A DNA stretch of 64,000 bases. Origin: Clostridia bacterium. Its GTDB lineage: Bacteria > Bacillota > Clostridia > RGIG6154. Both the position numbers and the translations under genes were made by a program. Positions 9,426 through 51,823 of the stretch are shown here, in pieces. The notes beneath the pieces are model-generated. The model was given only the letters and a program-made list of their open reading frames with translations. It had not been told where the DNA came from and made no database searches. Position 1 is the stretch's first letter, and each line of letters begins with the position of its first letter. The stretch spans positions 1-64,000 of the forward strand of contig JAFQQW010000016.1 of NCBI GenBank assembly GCA_017410375.1. The letters are read 5' to 3'.

Positions 9426-9454
9426 TTGACTTTTAAAACTAAATTATATATAAT
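9426..9454 (+). promoter_or_regulatory. Promoter of the first gfo gene
   Basis: TTGACT at 9426-9431, a 17-nt spacer and TATAAT at 9449-9454. Confidence 0.8.
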
Positions 9455-9512
9455 TTAACTGTAAATGCATGTATTACTTTGCTTTAAATTTTTTATAAAA
9501 GGAGAGGGAAAA

Positions 9513-10691
9513 ATGGCAAAAAGTAATAACGATGCTATGCTCGACTTTGATGTTGCAGCCGGTGCTGCTTCGGTTGACGCAAGCAAAAAATTAAGAATTG
9601 GTATTATCGGTACAGGCTGGATTGCAGATTCTCACATCGTAAACTACAAGAAAATGCCTGATGTTGAAATCGTTGCAGGTGCCGACCTTGTTCCCGGCAA
9701 AGCTGAAGCATTCTTCAAAAAGCATGAAATCGAAGGTGCAAAATGCTACTTAAGCCACAAAGAAATGCTTGATGACGAAAGCTTAAAGCTCGACGGTGTA
9801 AGTGTATGTACATATAACATGACCCATGCAGAATGTACAATTTACGCTTTGGATAAGGGTGTTAACGTACTTTTGGAAAAACCCATGTGCGTAACCTTAG
9901 AAGAAGGTGTCGAAATCTTAAAGGCTGAAAAGAGAAGCGGTAAGATTCTTTCTATCGGCTTTCAGCCCAGATTTGACCCCAATATGCAGATGGTTAAAGA
10001 AGTTGTTCAGTCTGGTGTATTGGGTAAAATTTACTACATCCAGTCCGGTGGTGGCCGCCGTCGTGGTATTCCGACTCCGTTTGGTACAACCTTTATCGAA
10101 AAGGAAACCGGCGGTTTGGGTGCATTAGGTGATATCGGTTGCTATTCTTTGGATATGCTTCTTAATGCTGTTGGTTATCCGAAACCGTTAACCGTTACCG
10201 GTTATGTTTCTGATTACTTCGGAACTGATCCGAATTACAGCGGTTATACAAGCAAAGGTCATCCGGAATATGCTGCGAAATTTGGTGTTGATGACTTTGC
10301 TGCAGGTTTCGTTCGTATGGAAAATGACATTATCTTAGACTTCAGAATTTCCTGGGCTATGAACATGGACACTCCCGGTGACGCTTTAATCTTAGGTACC
10401 AAGGGTGGTTTGAGAATTCCTTCCACAGACTGCTGGAACGGCACCATTGGCGGCAACCTGAAGCTTTATCAGGAAATTGGTGGCGAACAGGTTTGCACAG
10501 AAATCGAAATGAAAGAATCTAACGTTCCTTGCTTTGAAGTTAAGATTCGTTCTTTCCTGGATGCAATCAAAAACGGTGGCACAGCTCCCGTTCCTGCAAG
10601 CCAGATTATTATCAACCAGGCTATCCTTTCCAGCATCAAAAAGTCTGCTGATCTGGGTAGAGAAATCGAAGTTGAAATTCCCGAAATCTAA
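9513..10691 (+). CDS. Gfo/Idh/MocA-family NAD(P)-dependent oxidoreductase
   Basis: A cytoplasmic dehydrogenase of 392 residues. A short acidic leader precedes the Rossmann fold GIIGTGWIADSH (from residue ~30), and the conserved EKP motif (LLEKPMC) sits near residue 127. The C-terminal beta-sheet substrate domain contains GALGDIGCYSLDML, where the usual catalytic His position holds Tyr. Members oxidise or epimerise sugars, inositols or sugar nucleotides; the substrate cannot be assigned here. ATG 9513 follows GGAGAGGG; an upstream in-frame ATG (9465) lacks such a site. It is monocistronic, with its own promoter and terminator, and its G/C-ending codons suggest strong expression. Confidence 0.92.
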   Translation: MAKSNNDAMLDFDVAAGAASVDASKKLRIGIIGTGWIADSHIVNYKKMPDVEIVAGADLVPGKAEAFFKKHEIEGAKCYLSHKEMLDDESLKLDGVSVCTYNMTHAECTIYALDKGVNVLLEKPMCVTLEEGVEILKAEKRSGKILSIGFQPRFDPNMQMVKEVVQSGVLGKIYYIQSGGGRRRGIPTPFGTTFIEKETGGLGALGDIGCYSLDMLLNAVGYPKPLTVTGYVSDYFGTDPNYSGYTSKGHPEYAAKFGVDDFAAGFVRMENDIILDFRISWAMNMDTPGDALILGTKGGLRIPSTDCWNGTIGGNLKLYQEIGGEQVCTEIEMKESNVPCFEVKIRSFLDAIKNGGTAPVPASQIIINQAILSSIKKSADLGREIEVEIPEI

Positions 10692-45323: not shown

Positions 45324-45884
45324 GTGATTCGTTTGTTTATATATAAAAAAAGATTCCATAAAAAACAAAACAGCGTAAAATCTTTCTATTGGATTATAAC
45401 AACATTTTGTATGGGTTCGGGAATGATTGCAGGTTTTTTCCTCCCGAATCATGCAAATGACATTTTATATACGACAAATCCACAAGACTCTGTCTTGTTT
45501 TCATATTCTCTTTTAAAGAACATTTTTGTCGTTATTTTACTTTTTCTCAATGCATTTTCGTTGGTAGGTTTCCCGCTTTCGGCAATGCTTTTGTTTCTTG
45601 CAGGTTTTATGATTTCAGATGCATCAATTTATATATATCTTTTTTCCGATATTTCGCATCTATCCTTTATAATCCGGGCTATGCCACACATAATTATGCA
45701 AATTTCCATGTATTTTTTCCTGGCAAACAAGGTATTTCATTATTCCGCCGATCTGTTTGCTACAATACAACTCAACAGAGGAAAAAGAATTATCAGAACG
45801 GATTTTTTTAAATTGTTTCTCACGTTTCTATTTTCTGTTCTCCTTGCTTTTTTATCCTCGGCGTACGAAACCTTCATTCTTTAA
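45324..45884 (+). CDS. spoIIM: SpoIIM-like sporulation membrane protein
   Basis: A 186-residue membrane protein with about five spans (ITTFCMGSGMIAGFFLP; NIFVVILLFLNAFSLVGFP; LFLAGFMISDASIYIYLF; MPHIIMQISMYFFLANK; LTFLFSVLLAFLSS). The MPHIIMQ segment corresponds to the conserved membrane-interfacial helix of DUF95/SpoIIM. SpoIIM works in engulfment of the forespore with SpoIIP and SpoIID. The call leans on gene order: a tyrosine recombinase and a DacF-type peptidase follow, as around spoIIM in Bacillus. The sequence match itself is moderate. GTG 45324 follows AAGGCG. Confidence 0.75.
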   Translation: MIRLFIYKKRFHKKQNSVKSFYWIITTFCMGSGMIAGFFLPNHANDILYTTNPQDSVLFSYSLLKNIFVVILLFLNAFSLVGFPLSAMLLFLAGFMISDASIYIYLFSDISHLSFIIRAMPHIIMQISMYFFLANKVFHYSADLFATIQLNRGKRIIRTDFFKLFLTFLFSVLLAFLSSAYETFIL

Positions 45885-45940: not shown

Positions 45941-46807
45941 ATGGAAGAAAGAAAAAACGAATACTTAACCTACTTAAAAAAGATTAAAAAACTTTCCCAA
46001 AATACTCTTATGGCATATTCCAAGGATATAAATGATTACATTTTATACCTGAGCGAACATAAGATTTCACTAAAACGCGTTCGTAAAAATACCATCTTTG
46101 GCTTTGAGAATTTTTTGTATCATAAGGGAAAATCAGGCGCGTCTGTCGCCAGAGCGGTTGTATCTGTTCGGGGCTTTCATCAGCATTTGGTAGATGTCGG
46201 ATTCATGAAATCAAATCCCGCAATAAACGTTGAAACTCCAAAACCCGAACGGTTGCTCCCGGGAATTCTATCGTTAAAAGAAATTGAAATTTTGATGCAA
46301 CAACCAAACTGCGTCAACTACAAAGGTTATCGTGACAAAGCCATTTTAGAACTTTTATACGCAACAGGTCTTCGTGTTTCTGAGTTGGTACAGTTAAAGC
46401 TCTCGCACGTCGATTTTGACAAAGGCACAATATCCTGTACCGACCGTATTATTCCTTTCGGCGCTTTTTCTTCAGAAGCGTTGAAGAAATATGTAGAAAA
46501 TTCCCCATTTTTAAAAAACGAGAAAACAGATCCTTTCTTGTTTACTAATACAGGTGGTAAGCAGTTAACGCGTCAGGGCGTGTGGAAAATGTTGCGCAAA
46601 TACAGAACTTTATCCGGCATTCAAAAGGATATCTCGCCACAAATTTTACGAAACTCTTTCGCTGCACATTTGATTGAAAACGGTGCGGATATAAAAATCG
46701 TACAGGAACTTATGGGACATACAGCATTATCTTCTACGCTTATATATGCCGAACTAAGCAAAAACAAACTCCGTGACGCATATGACAAAGCACACCCGAG
46801 AGCATAA
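45941..46807 (+). CDS. xerD: XerD-like tyrosine recombinase with altered active site
   Basis: A 288-residue protein of the XerC/XerD family, in the spoIIM-xerD-dacF position. The N-terminal SAM-like domain and the ATGLRVSEL catalytic Arg (R145) are intact, as are R237, the His in LMGHTALSS, and the nucleophile Y269. However, the HxxR box reads SPQILRN, so the catalytic His is Gln (Q234). The beta-hairpin that normally holds GKGNKER with the catalytic Lys is shortened to SCTDRIIPFG with no Lys. The tail KAHPRA is typical of XerD. It may be inactive or changed in function; an intact paralogue lies at 48019. GTGAGG is upstream of ATG 45941. Confidence 0.9.
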   Translation: MEERKNEYLTYLKKIKKLSQNTLMAYSKDINDYILYLSEHKISLKRVRKNTIFGFENFLYHKGKSGASVARAVVSVRGFHQHLVDVGFMKSNPAINVETPKPERLLPGILSLKEIEILMQQPNCVNYKGYRDKAILELLYATGLRVSELVQLKLSHVDFDKGTISCTDRIIPFGAFSSEALKKYVENSPFLKNEKTDPFLFTNTGGKQLTRQGVWKMLRKYRTLSGIQKDISPQILRNSFAAHLIENGADIKIVQELMGHTALSSTLIYAELSKNKLRDAYDKAHPRA

Positions 46808-46849: not shown

Positions 46850-47983
46850 GTGTATAAAAAGTTTTTTATATGCCTGCTTTGTTTTTTCATGACATTTACA
46901 ACAGCAAGTGCTAAAGATATCCATTCTATTGAAGCGCAATCCTATGTGCTGATGGATGGTCAAAGCGGAAAAGTTCTTTTAGAGAAAGACAGTGACATGC
47001 AGCTTCCACCTGCATCAATAACAAAAATTATGACAATGCTGTTAACCTTGGAGGCTGTCGATAAAGAAGTTATATCTCTGAGCGACATAGTTACAGTAAG
47101 CGAAAGTGCCGCTATTCATGAAGGATCACATGTTTTTTTGGAAATAGGCGAGCAAATAAGTGTAGATGACCTGATGAAGGCAGTTGCTGTCGCATCTGGA
47201 AATGATGCTGCAAATGCTCTGGCGGAGCACGTATCAGACTCTCAGGATGATTTTGTAAAAGCGATGAACAAACGTGCAAAAGAACTGAAAATGTCAAACA
47301 CTAATTTTGTGAACTGCAATGGGCTGGACCAGGAAAACCATTACTCTTCAGCAATGGATGTTGCGAAAATGACTTTTGAAATAGCAAAACACCCTGAAAT
47401 TTTTAAATACACATCCATCTGGATGGATACATTGCGAGACGGAGCATTTCAATTGGCAAACACAAATAAGCTTATTCGTTTTTATGACGGAGCGACCGGC
47501 ATGAAAACAGGATACACCTCAAATGCCGGTTATTGTTTATCTGCCACAGCAGAAAGAAATGGCATTTCTTTAATTGCGGTTGTCATGAAATCCCCAACCT
47601 CTTCGGGTCGTTTTGGAGATGCATCTGCATTACTGAATTACGGATTTGACAGCTATACAATGATAGAATGCGGTAAAAAGGGACAAATTTATGGTGAAAT
47701 TGCGGTTGAAAAGGGAGAAAATGAATCTGTTCAGGCGGTTTTGTCCGAAGACGTGAATTTAACGGTTTTAAAAGAAGAAAAGGGAAGTGTAGAAGAAAAA
47801 ATCTTGCTTCCATCAAAGGTTTCAGCGCCGATATACAAAAACAGTACGATTGGAAAAGTGGAGTATCTTATAAACGGCAGAGTAGTGGGGGAAGCGGAAT
47901 TGGTTGCGTTAAACAATTCCCCAAAAACAACACTTTCCTCATGTTTTAAAAAGCTACTTAAAAATATTATTTCATGTGTATAA
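46850..47983 (+). CDS. dacF: D-alanyl-D-alanine carboxypeptidase, DacF type
   Basis: A penicillin-binding protein (peptidase S11) that trims pentapeptides of peptidoglycan; DacF acts in the spore cortex in Bacillus. 377 residues. A signal peptide (~1-22, ending TASA) precedes the SxxK motif PASITKIMTM (~60), SGN in AVASGNDAA, and KTG in GMKTGYTSNAGYC. A C-terminal beta-rich domain and a weak amphipathic end (KKLLKNIISCV) follow. GTG 46850 is used, with GGAGGTG inside the hairpin just upstream. The stop lies in a 19-bp terminator stem. Confidence 0.93.
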   Translation: MYKKFFICLLCFFMTFTTASAKDIHSIEAQSYVLMDGQSGKVLLEKDSDMQLPPASITKIMTMLLTLEAVDKEVISLSDIVTVSESAAIHEGSHVFLEIGEQISVDDLMKAVAVASGNDAANALAEHVSDSQDDFVKAMNKRAKELKMSNTNFVNCNGLDQENHYSSAMDVAKMTFEIAKHPEIFKYTSIWMDTLRDGAFQLANTNKLIRFYDGATGMKTGYTSNAGYCLSATAERNGISLIAVVMKSPTSSGRFGDASALLNYGFDSYTMIECGKKGQIYGEIAVEKGENESVQAVLSEDVNLTVLKEEKGSVEEKILLPSKVSAPIYKNSTIGKVEYLINGRVVGEAELVALNNSPKTTLSSCFKKLLKNIISCV

Positions 47984-48022
47984 ATATAAATCACCGCATT
48001 GATTGCGGTGATTTATATTTAT
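47980..48022. terminator. Bidirectional terminator
   Basis: A 19-bp perfect stem (47980-47998 with 48004-48022) with TTGAT loop, holding the stop codons of dacF (+) and the convergent recombinase (-) in its two arms. Confidence 0.92.
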
Positions 48023-48972
48023 TCTTCATCGTTTAAACTTGCGAGCGGATTGTTTTTTACAGCATTCCGCCTTTGTTCATCGTCAATATGTGTATAAATT
48101 TGTGTTGTTGCAAGCTGATTATGGCCTAAAATTTCCTGCAATGTTCTTAAATCTGTTTCTGCGTATTTATACATCAATGTAGCCGCGGTATGGCGCAGCT
48201 TATGTACCGAGTATTTCGTATCATCCAGTCCGGCATCCTTTATATGCTTTTTAACAAGCCACTGAACTGTTTTATTGCTGATTCTGGTTAATCGTTTGCT
48301 TAAAAAGAGCGCGTTTTTGTCAATAACACCGTCTGTCGGACGCACACGCATATAATTACGCACCGCAGCAATGCAGGCGTCATTTAAATAAATAACACGT
48401 TCTTTGTTGCCTTTGCCGGTTACAATTAAAACATCATCCTTAAAATCATTAATATTTATACCAACCAATTCAGACAAACGAAGGCCGCAATTTAAGAAAA
48501 GTGTTAAAATAGCATAGTCTCTGTATTTGTTTTCACCTTCAACAGCGGACAACAGTTGTTTTGACTCATCTAGTGTAAGATACCGCGGGAGCGATTGTTT
48601 TATTTTTGGAGAGTCCAATTCTTTCGCAGGATTATCCTTAATATGCTTTGCTTTTGAAGCCATATATTTAAAATAGCTTCTGAGACATGCAACCTTACGC
48701 GCTCTGGATGACGCAGTGTTTTTTCTTTCATCTGCCATATACGTTAGGTATGCGTATAAATCAATCAATTCAATGGTTTCAACGAAAGAGTAATCCAGAT
48801 CAGAGATAGAATCAGTTTTTTCATGTAGCTTGTATTCTTTCATAAACAGAAAAAATATATTCAAATCAGAAGCATACTCTTTAACGGTACTGAAAGACTT
48901 ACCCTTAATAGATTGCATATACATCAAAAACTCCCGATAAACAAAAGGCTGCTCATTAATATGAAACTCCAT
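48019..48972 (-). CDS. Tyrosine recombinase, XerC/XerD type, intact active site
   Basis: A 317-residue site-specific recombinase. The N-terminal SAM-like core-binding domain (~1-105) precedes the catalytic domain. All six expected residues are visible: Arg in NCGLRLSELVGI, Lys in VTGKGNKERVIYL, His and Arg in SVHKLRHTAATLM, His in ILGHNQLATTQ and Tyr in IYTHID. It is thus the better candidate for chromosome-dimer resolution at dif than the XerD-like protein at 45941. GGGGAG lies upstream of ATG 48972. It has its own strong promoter overlapping a 13-bp palindrome. No dif-like site was recognised nearby. Confidence 0.93.
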   Translation of the reverse strand: MEFHINEQPFVYREFLMYMQSIKGKSFSTVKEYASDLNIFFLFMKEYKLHEKTDSISDLDYSFVETIELIDLYAYLTYMADERKNTASSRARKVACLRSYFKYMASKAKHIKDNPAKELDSPKIKQSLPRYLTLDESKQLLSAVEGENKYRDYAILTLFLNCGLRLSELVGININDFKDDVLIVTGKGNKERVIYLNDACIAAVRNYMRVRPTDGVIDKNALFLSKRLTRISNKTVQWLVKKHIKDAGLDDTKYSVHKLRHTAATLMYKYAETDLRTLQEILGHNQLATTQIYTHIDDEQRRNAVKNNPLASLNDEE

Positions 48973-48986
48973 TATTTTCTCCCCTC

Positions 48987-49016
48987 AATTATACAAAATC
49001 TTTATTTTGTATAATT
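48987..49016 (-). promoter_or_regulatory. 13-bp perfect palindrome at the recombinase transcription start
   Basis: AATTATACAAAAT (48987-48999) and ATTTTGTATAATT (49004-49016) are exact reverse complements around CTTT. It overlaps the inner part of the -10 box and the expected start point, a typical repressor position; as RNA it would form a 5' hairpin. Confidence 0.65.
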
Positions 49017-49042
49017 ATATCATAATTTTCATAGGATGTCAA
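49014..49042 (-). promoter_or_regulatory. Promoter of the intact recombinase gene
   Basis: On the minus strand, TTGACA (49042-49037), a 17-nt spacer ending in TGA, and TATAAT (49019-49014): a full-consensus, extended -10 promoter. Confidence 0.9.
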
Positions 49043-49600: not shown

Positions 49601-50722
49601 ATGAAAAATGACTATATTGCTATTCGACGTTATTTACATCAGCACCCAGAGTTGTCATTTGAAGAATATAACTCTGCAAAAACAATCTCTGATGTTTTAA
49701 ACAGTCTGTCTATTCCCCACTCTACAGGAATTGCCAAAACAGGTGTTTGTGGTGTTTTACGCGGGAAATATCCCGGAAAAACAATTCTTTTGCGTGCTGA
49801 TATGGATGCACTCCCTTTGCAGGAAAAAAATCAGTGCGAATATGCATCACAAAACAACGGCGTTATGCATGCGTGTGGACACGATGTGCATGTTGCTGTG
49901 ATTTTGATGGCAGCAGAATTGCTCTCAGAAAGAATCGATGATATTCACGGAAATGTAAAATTTGTTTTTCAACCTGCTGAAGAAACCACAGGCGGTGCTC
50001 TGCCGATGATAAAAGAAGGCATTCTGAAGAATCCCGATGTAAGTGCATGTATCGGATTACATGTAAAGCCCGAGCTTGAAACGGGTAAAATTATCGCTTC
50101 CTCCGGAAAAATAATGGCATCTCCCGACTCTTTTTACATCACCTTATCCGGCAAAGGCGGACATTGCGCGACACCGTCACAAAATGACGATTTATTATCA
50201 GCACTTGCCGTTCTTTTGACTGAATTAAAGTGTATTTCTTATCCCGATTCGTTGGTAGTGCCGTGCGAAGTTCATGCAGGTACAGCACCGAACATCATGC
50301 CCTCTGAACTAAAAATCAGCGGAAGTTTTCGTTCTTTCGATCCGGGCGTTCGTCAAAAGATTGCGCAAAACATATGCAATCTTGTAGAAAAAATCTCCAA
50401 AAGTTTCGGTATTCAAGGTGAAACAGAAATCGAATTATTGTATCCGCCACTTTGCAACGATACCCACTTAACAGCTACCCTTCAAAAGGTCGCCGAAACC
50501 GTGATTGGCACCGATAACGTAATCAAAACCTTTACCCCAAGTTTTCTCGGAGAAGATTTTTCTTACTTTGGAGAATCTGTTCCGGCATCTTATTTTTATC
50601 TGGGATGCAAAAGAAATGACCGCGAAACTGCGTTACACGCAGATAATTTTGATGTAGACGAATCAGCCATCGAGATAGGTGCAAAAATCATAGCAGAAAC
50701 CGTTCTGGAATATTTAAAATAA
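49601..50722 (+). CDS. M20D-family amidohydrolase
   Basis: A metal-dependent hydrolase of N-acyl amino acids, 373 residues; N-acetyl-diaminopimelate deacetylase and hippurate/IAA-amino-acid hydrolases belong here and cannot be told apart by eye. RRYLHQHPELSFEEYNSA, the metal-binding MHACGHDVHVAVI (~90-102), VFQPAEETTGGALPMI and the terminal GEDFSYF are signature blocks; a dimerisation domain is inserted at ~175-290. There is no signal peptide. ATG 49601 follows GAGG at 49588; the longer frame from 49541 would start inside the promoter. It converges with and overlaps the next gene by 9 nt. Confidence 0.92.
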   Translation: MKNDYIAIRRYLHQHPELSFEEYNSAKTISDVLNSLSIPHSTGIAKTGVCGVLRGKYPGKTILLRADMDALPLQEKNQCEYASQNNGVMHACGHDVHVAVILMAAELLSERIDDIHGNVKFVFQPAEETTGGALPMIKEGILKNPDVSACIGLHVKPELETGKIIASSGKIMASPDSFYITLSGKGGHCATPSQNDDLLSALAVLLTELKCISYPDSLVVPCEVHAGTAPNIMPSELKISGSFRSFDPGVRQKIAQNICNLVEKISKSFGIQGETEIELLYPPLCNDTHLTATLQKVAETVIGTDNVIKTFTPSFLGEDFSYFGESVPASYFYLGCKRNDRETALHADNFDVDESAIEIGAKIIAETVLEYLK

Positions 50723-51823
50723 TTGTCCGAACAGCATCAACAAAAAATCCTGAAGCTTCGGAACAATTTTTACATCACAGCTTTCTTTCGAAACAATATC
50801 TGCTTTCATTATCATTTCACCATTTAAATAAAACTCTCTGTATCCAACCACAGCTCCTTTTTCTATCGGAGCTGTGTTATTTTTACTCCAAATCGTTTTG
50901 AAGGTAACGCAATCCGAATCTAAAACAGGAATAGAAACTGTGTTCTTGTAGCTTGTTTTAACAAAATTTTTCTCTCCATTCTTAACAACATAATCCTCTG
51001 CTGTTAAATTTTCCTGCAGTAAATCTTTTCTTTGTAAAATTGAAAATCCGTAATCCATCAATTTTATATGATCATTCCAATCATCCGGTGCATTCAGTGT
51101 CACAGCAATAAGGTGTATCCCGTCTCTTGTGGCTGAACTTACCAAACATCTTCCGCTCTTTTTTGTAAAGCCAGTCTTTCCTCCGCTACACCCTTCATAT
51201 AACGTTAAGAGCTTATTATGATTATGAATCACACGATTGTACGGATGTCCCTTCCAGGGAATTTCATACTGTTTTGTAGAAGTGATTGTTCGGAACAGCG
51301 GATTTTTTTCTGCATAAGCCATAATTTTCGCTAAATCCGCAGCTGTTGCGTAATGCGATTCATGGTCAAGCCCGCTCGGATTGACAAAATTGGATTGATC
51401 CGCACCCGACCTTTTAGCGGTTTGATTCATGAGAATAGCAAAATTTTCAACATCTTTTCCGATGTGCTCCGCAATCGCAACAGAAGCATCATTTCCGGAT
51501 GCGAGCATCAATCCATACAGCAAATTTTCAAGCGTCTGTTCCTCCCCTTCTTCAAGCCAGATTGAAGAACCTTCGATTTCAGAAGCGCTTTTGCTTGTTA
51601 TAACAACATCAGCAGGGTTTCCGTTTTCTATTGCCGTAATTGCGGTAAGGATTTTCGTTGTACTCGCAATTCCCATTTTTACATCCTTGCTTTTTTCGAA
51701 TAAAAATCTTCCGCTGACCGGCTCATATAAAGCGGCAGATGCTGCAGACAAGTCAAACCCCATTATAACAACAGGAAAAAGAATAAAAATAATTAAAAAT
51801 ATAAAAAGAACTTTTTTCTTCAA
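50714..51823 (-). CDS. D-alanyl-D-alanine carboxypeptidase (second S11 paralogue)
   Basis: A second DacF/DacA-type enzyme, 369 residues. An N-terminal signal or anchor (~3-24, VLFIFLIIFILFPVVIMGF) precedes SxxK in GIASTTKILTAI (~54), SGN in LASGNDASVAIAEH and KTG in GGKTGFTKKSGRC. The C-terminal domain ends in an amphipathic membrane-binding helix (LQDFLLMLFGQLF). Gene order (beside gerW, DUF2953, scpB and scpA) suggests the sporulation-linked branch, but the vegetative role of DacA is possible. The start is ATG 51823, with GGGCGGTGA upstream. It differs clearly from the 46850 protein. Confidence 0.92.
   Translation of the reverse strand: MKKKVLFIFLIIFILFPVVIMGFDLSAASAALYEPVSGRFLFEKSKDVKMGIASTTKILTAITAIENGNPADVVITSKSASEIEGSSIWLEEGEEQTLENLLYGLMLASGNDASVAIAEHIGKDVENFAILMNQTAKRSGADQSNFVNPSGLDHESHYATAADLAKIMAYAEKNPLFRTITSTKQYEIPWKGHPYNRVIHNHNKLLTLYEGCSGGKTGFTKKSGRCLVSSATRDGIHLIAVTLNAPDDWNDHIKLMDYGFSILQRKDLLQENLTAEDYVVKNGEKNFVKTSYKNTVSIPVLDSDCVTFKTIWSKNNTAPIEKGAVVGYREFYLNGEMIMKADIVSKESCDVKIVPKLQDFLLMLFGQLF

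Follow-up and report, generated by a model that had tools for sequence, protein, structure and literature searches.

A putative single-recombinase Xer/dif system in Clostridia, accompanied by a XerD that has probably been released from catalysis

Xer/dif systems that rely on a single recombinase have been described in several bacterial lineages. In the Legionellales, XerL is associated with a near-terminus dif of perfect, uninterrupted dyad symmetry (PMC9765430). XerS/difSL of streptococci and lactococci and XerH/difH of Helicobacter and Campylobacter likewise consist of one recombinase and a gene-linked dif located at the terminus (PMC5357621, PMC9765430). In Bacillus subtilis, XerD has been presented as an unloader of SMC complexes, according to what PMC12322038 and PMC8669397 cite. 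For most Firmicutes, Kono et al. 2011 (PMC3025954) obtained dif predictions with a Bacillus-based model, and these may already include some of the sites presented here. Our literature search retrieved no description of the present Xer/dif in Clostridia.

Here, we analysed a window of 64,000 nucleotides from a Clostridia bacterium (contig JAFQQW010000016.1), in which a XerD-like protein, hereafter slot XerD, is encoded between a spoIIM-like and a dacF-like gene. The slot contains the following features:

45324..45884, forward strand: spoIIM-like gene, context (weak TIGR02831 match)
45941..46807, forward strand: slot XerD, 288 aa, predicted catalytically dead (ORF, profile search, alignment, AlphaFold2 model)
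46427..46456, forward strand: shortened beta2-beta3 hairpin, residues 163-172 (TISC-TD-RIIP), catalytic Lys gone (alignment, AlphaFold2 model)
46571..46588, forward strand: DNA-recognition helix motif R211 Q212 G V W K216, kept; it corresponds to the E. coli XerD R220/Q221 region, which we take to have a role in base recognition (alignment)
46640..46651, forward strand: Q234, in place of the catalytic His, to R237, catalytic Arg II, kept (alignment)
46850..47983, forward strand: dacF-like D-Ala-D-Ala carboxypeptidase gene, context (profile search)

The best profile match of slot XerD is XerD, spanning residues 7-288, and its score against the XerD equivalog TIGR02225 (294.5 bits) falls under the curated cut-off of 329.6. 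It aligns with E. coli XerD (1a0p; phmmer E-value 1.6e-44), and this alignment shows that the XerD catalytic set, R-K-H-R-H/W-Y, is incomplete. A five-residue gap (ISC-----TDRIIPFG) takes out GKGNKE, and E. coli SPHVLRH corresponds to SPQILRN, replacing the catalytic His with Gln. In the AlphaFold2 model (pLDDT 89), a two-residue turn without Lys links strands 163-166 and 169-172. R145, R237, H260 and Y269 are still present, R237 and Y269 being invariant columns of the slot-XerD alignment, and the C-terminal HPRA tail is kept. The original prediction, that two of six catalytic residues are missing and the other four remain in a protein of a conserved spoIIM-xerD-dacF slot, is thereby borne out; the checked relatives have a dacF-like gene nearby or, judging by their ORFs, proC, spoIIM-like or nucleoside genes. 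The prediction had also named a sequencing or strain artefact as a possible cause and relatives as the place to look. We rejected an assembly or strain artefact because the losses recur in G001, a relative from the same genus whose slot XerD is 70.5% identical, and because the catalytic His is likewise replaced, by Lys and Gln, in G003 and G005, which belong to the same family.

A second Xer protein is encoded on the opposite strand:

48019..48972, reverse strand: intact Xer paralogue, 317 aa, proposed single recombinase for chromosome-dimer resolution (profile search, alignment)

All six catalytic residues expected of this paralogue (R165, K187, H257, R260, H284 and Y293) are present and invariant in 13 orthologues. 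Orthologues are 48-69% identical and spread over many families, including genomes without slot XerD. The intact Xer falls below every curated cut-off for XerC, XerD, XerA and XerS, scoring 144.1 bits against the XerS model NF003462 (cut-off 267) and 198.1 bits against the archaeal-type XerA model NF040815 (cut-off 220). PADLOC returned no match. A canonical XerC equivalog was found above its cut-off in none of 63 genomes of the class, the window's own included, and two control genomes passed the same search. The canonical XerC that defines the two-recombinase XerC/XerD arrangement is therefore missing from this set. As a separate observation, one contig (G281:C9, locus L388) encodes a second, highly degenerate Xer-like ORF (9451-10350, reverse strand) whose start carries a dif-type palindrome (site 10344). 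The ORF and its site lie 5.5 kb from another such palindrome and close to a lexA-linked Xer of 357 aa; this arrangement looks like turnover of single-Xer genes.

Directly upstream of the intact Xer gene lies a palindrome, ATTATACAAAAT-CTTT-ATTTTGTATAAT, present in a single copy in the window's genome:

48987..49016, no strand assigned: proposed dif, 13-nt perfect inverted repeat with a 4-nt centre, 28-bp core at 48988-49015 (repeat search, copy number, GC skew)
49014..49042, reverse strand: promoter of the intact Xer, TTGACA-17-TATAAT, 12/12 with TG before the -10, overlapping dif (sequence match)

The overlap suggests that the intact Xer may regulate its own expression. Upstream of most of its orthologues, two arms of 11 bp separated by 6 bp (11-6-11) form a perfect inverted repeat; the arms differ between lineages but match each other within a site. 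Of the 393 class genomes, 163 contain the pattern AnTnnnCnAAATnnnnATTTnGnnnAnT, nearly always once, whereas the reversed pattern, used as a control, is present in about 40. Among 80 named loci, the palindrome lies at most 8 kb from the Xer gene in 27, as opposed to 0 of 800 mononucleotide shuffles. The named genera with the site include Clostridium, Acutalibacter, Anaeromassilibacillus, Pseudoflavonifractor and Proteiniclasticum. A Bacillus-like dif core (AATnTATATTATGTnAA) was also considered and discarded, its matches being at control level with no convincing site in the window's own genome. On another contig (G380:C28, 205,650 bp), the two ends (L389 and L390) are inverted copies of one sequence, at least 1,200 bp long, that includes a dif-type palindrome; either a limit of the assembly or a genuine terminal repeat may account for this.

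The genomic position of the palindrome was then compared with two landmarks of replication. In 14 of 15 near-complete genomes with a placed dnaA, it is located at 0.41-0.50 of the chromosome from dnaA (binomial p = 2e-9, with genomes taken as independent, although several share a genus). The maximum of the cumulative GC skew lies 34 bp to 4.5 kb from the site in all six genomes checked, which represent six families and include the window's own (peak offsets of -1082, -4468, -46, +34, -3126 and +243 bp). On the window's contig, the skew is +0.09 to the left of the site and -0.10 to the right, peaking within about 1.1 kb. From the single copy, the position opposite dnaA, the GC-skew peak and the distance from the gene in other genomes, we conclude that the palindrome is dif, and we infer that recombination takes place there. 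The locus thus combines one Xer bearing all six residues with a single, terminus-located dif. The intact Xer is very probably a single-recombinase dimer-resolution enzyme, acting on a symmetric, promoter-overlapping dif that marks the terminus. The reverse strand of the window also holds, at 50714-51823, another ORF resembling a D-Ala-D-Ala carboxypeptidase; it lies beyond the proposed terminus as seen from the dacF-like gene, some 3 kb away and in the opposite orientation.

The presence of two Xer proteins raises the question of their relationship. The division of labour foreseen in the original prediction stands as far as one active and one non-catalytic Xer are concerned. The further proposal of an accessory or regulatory subunit corresponds to a slot XerD that partners the intact Xer at dif, regulating it, bending DNA or linking to FtsK, within a heterotetramer of which one member cuts. 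The retained HPRA tail and DNA-recognition helix would suit such a partner, as would the proximity of the two genes, about 1.2 kb apart in the window's genus. However, the genes lie on separate contigs in G003 and G005, the proposed dif is perfectly symmetric and offers no distinct XerD arm, and some genomes of the class, G019, G021 and G039 among them, keep Xer and dif but have no slot XerD. We consider an accessory subunit unlikely, since the active Xer is provided with a perfectly symmetric dif of its own and since Xer and dif alike are maintained where slot XerD is absent. This persistence is consistent with a recombinase sufficing alone.

To place the catalytic losses in a broader context, slot XerD was examined across the class. 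Close matches were found in 217 of 393 genomes, and 128 proteins were aligned. Of these, 41 lack R148, H244, H270 or Y279: at R148, 26 proteins have Lys and one has Leu; 29 proteins carry a substitution at H244 and 10 at H270; and two have Phe for the nucleophile Y279. R247 is invariant throughout. The Lys position varies even in otherwise intact slot XerDs, where the hairpin alignment is uncertain. On a quick tree built with the trait columns removed, the minimum numbers of changes are 12 for R148, 14 for H244, 7 for H270 and 2 for Y279; the degenerate/intact label changes at least 13 times, and well-supported branches require at least 6 of these changes. The window's family forms a single supported clade in which all members lack the His. 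In several families, slot XerD is catalytically intact despite the presence of the single Xer, so that its catalytic loss seems to be permitted rather than obligatory. Some genomes with a degenerate slot XerD (families f2, f11 and f30) have a different Xer and no close orthologue of the window's intact Xer. Such an orthologue is also missing from the genomes of the two Tyr-to-Phe proteins (L118 in G346 and L124 in G095), which are the clearest catalytically dead slot XerDs.

A degenerate enzyme may be a functionless remnant, and decay after replacement was indeed the other outcome contemplated in the original prediction. Catalytic residues have been lost repeatedly and in differing ways, about 45% of class genomes have no close slot-XerD match, and dN/dS is higher in measurable degenerate pairs (0.08-0.17) than in intact pairs (0.02-0.07); these values are near saturation and approximate, and the pair formed by the window and G001 is excluded because its synonymous sites are saturated. 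Even so, all of these values are well under 1, indicating purifying selection, and among the matches listed the slot-XerD frames are open, with no internal stops, bar one. Since the degenerate group was chosen by catalytic loss, its catalytic residues vary by construction, and the finding is the invariance elsewhere: R220, Q221, G, W and K of the recognition helix (RQGxWK), together with R247, are 100% conserved in 41/41 members. Between the window and G001, slot XerD is also better conserved (70.5% identity) than dacF (59%), proC (58%) and spoIIM (34%). Given the intact ORF, the invariant helix and the low dN/dS, pseudogene decay is unsupported and, in our view, improbable. Judged by its sequence evolution, slot XerD is a constrained, functional protein, with constraint somewhat relaxed.

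Such a protein could instead still recombine DNA, at another site, by means of a modified set of catalytic residues in which Gln stands for His and another residue for Lys. The window protein retains both Arg residues and the nucleophilic Tyr, Gln or Tyr occurs naturally at the catalytic His position in the family, and the Cre mutant H289A, which lacks the His, still recombines (PMC4381057). However, the Lys-bearing hairpin is gone, the Cre Lys mutant K201A is inactive yet forms synapses (PMC4381057), and two relatives have Phe for the nucleophile. From the Cre mutants, the absent hairpin is the decisive loss, the His-to-Gln change being no proof by itself, and residual recombinase activity has a low probability. 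Even less likely is a palindrome that acts solely as an operator, of the intact Xer's promoter or of another regulator, and not as dif. Its overlap with a perfect sigma-A promoter in the window would fit that reading, but in other genomes it lies up to 66 kb from the Xer gene and is still at the terminus, and its single copy, its position opposite dnaA and the GC-skew peak also speak against it. We infer that slot XerD has lost its catalytic activity, and a catalytically dead protein retained for a function is the probable interpretation.

Taken together, the two parts point to an explanation to which we assign a probability of roughly two in three. The intact Xer would resolve chromosome dimers alone at the symmetric dif at 48987-49016. 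With the single Xer doing this job and the canonical XerC gone, slot XerD would have been relieved of its catalytic role here and in several other lineages of the class, losing catalytic residues (here the Lys hairpin and the His) and keeping sequence-specific DNA binding, so as to act now as a non-cutting DNA-binding protein. By analogy with B. subtilis XerD, the best candidate for the retained job, put forward tentatively, would be the unloading of SMC complexes near the terminus. Karaboja and colleagues reportedly found that SMC unloading by the B. subtilis protein does not need the catalytic residue. More speculatively, the explanation could be extended to Clostridia in general: a Xer that needs no partner, with its perfectly symmetric dif, would have taken the place of XerC/XerD, and XerD, left on its own, would time and again have turned into a dedicated terminus protein that unloads SMC complexes and does not cut DNA. 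This would amount to a natural separation of the two roles of XerD, SMC unloading and recombination. Terminus-polar XerD half-sites (TTATGTnAA) were considered as a sign of SMC-unloading sites. Suggestive in single genomes, they showed no excess over shuffled motifs, 19 of 150 of which were as extreme; an SMC-unloading role is therefore unsupported by these genomes. In one contig (G116:C1; L367 and L386), the 26-mer TATTATGTWAATTMAAAAAAWGTAAA has exactly four perfect copies genome-wide, at 1450734 and 1464346 on the forward strand and 1502394 and 1553542 on the reverse strand. All four point toward the proposed dif (1491286), none of them more than 62 kb away, and their flanks are unrelated. 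The element, possibly XerD- or SMC-related, was not found in the window or in other families.

The dif site, its terminus location and the class-wide recurrence of degenerate slot XerDs go beyond the original prediction. If correct, this explanation would add a widespread single-Xer/dif system in Clostridia, correct the assumption that XerD resolves dimers in these genomes, and provide a simple DNA pattern marking the terminus in draft genomes. It would also supply natural catalytic mutants for testing whether chromosome organisation by XerD is separable from recombination.

Among the known systems, the locus most resembles XerL/dif, with which it shares the single recombinase, the near-terminus dif, the perfect dyad symmetry and the lack of a canonical XerC/XerD pair. 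It differs in belonging to another lineage, in its arm (AnTnnnCnAAAT), in that dif is usually near the xer gene, and in the coexistence of a non-catalytic XerD. The single recombinase and the gene-linked terminus dif are shared with XerS/difSL and XerH/difH; unlike in the window site, the repeats of difSL are imperfect and its centre measures 11 bp, and the intact Xer is far from the XerS cut-off. Slot XerD itself is orthologous to RipX/XerD of B. subtilis, with the same spoIIM-XerD-dacF neighbourhood, and the likeness would extend to the second role beyond recombination, as far as Karaboja et al. 2021 (PMID 33472056) is cited in PMC12322038. The B. subtilis protein is catalytically intact and acts with XerC at dif, whereas the window protein has neither the Lys hairpin nor a XerC partner. 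We regard the clostridial system as a form of single-recombinase Xer/dif that is unusual in being accompanied by a XerD with recurrent degeneration of its catalytic site.
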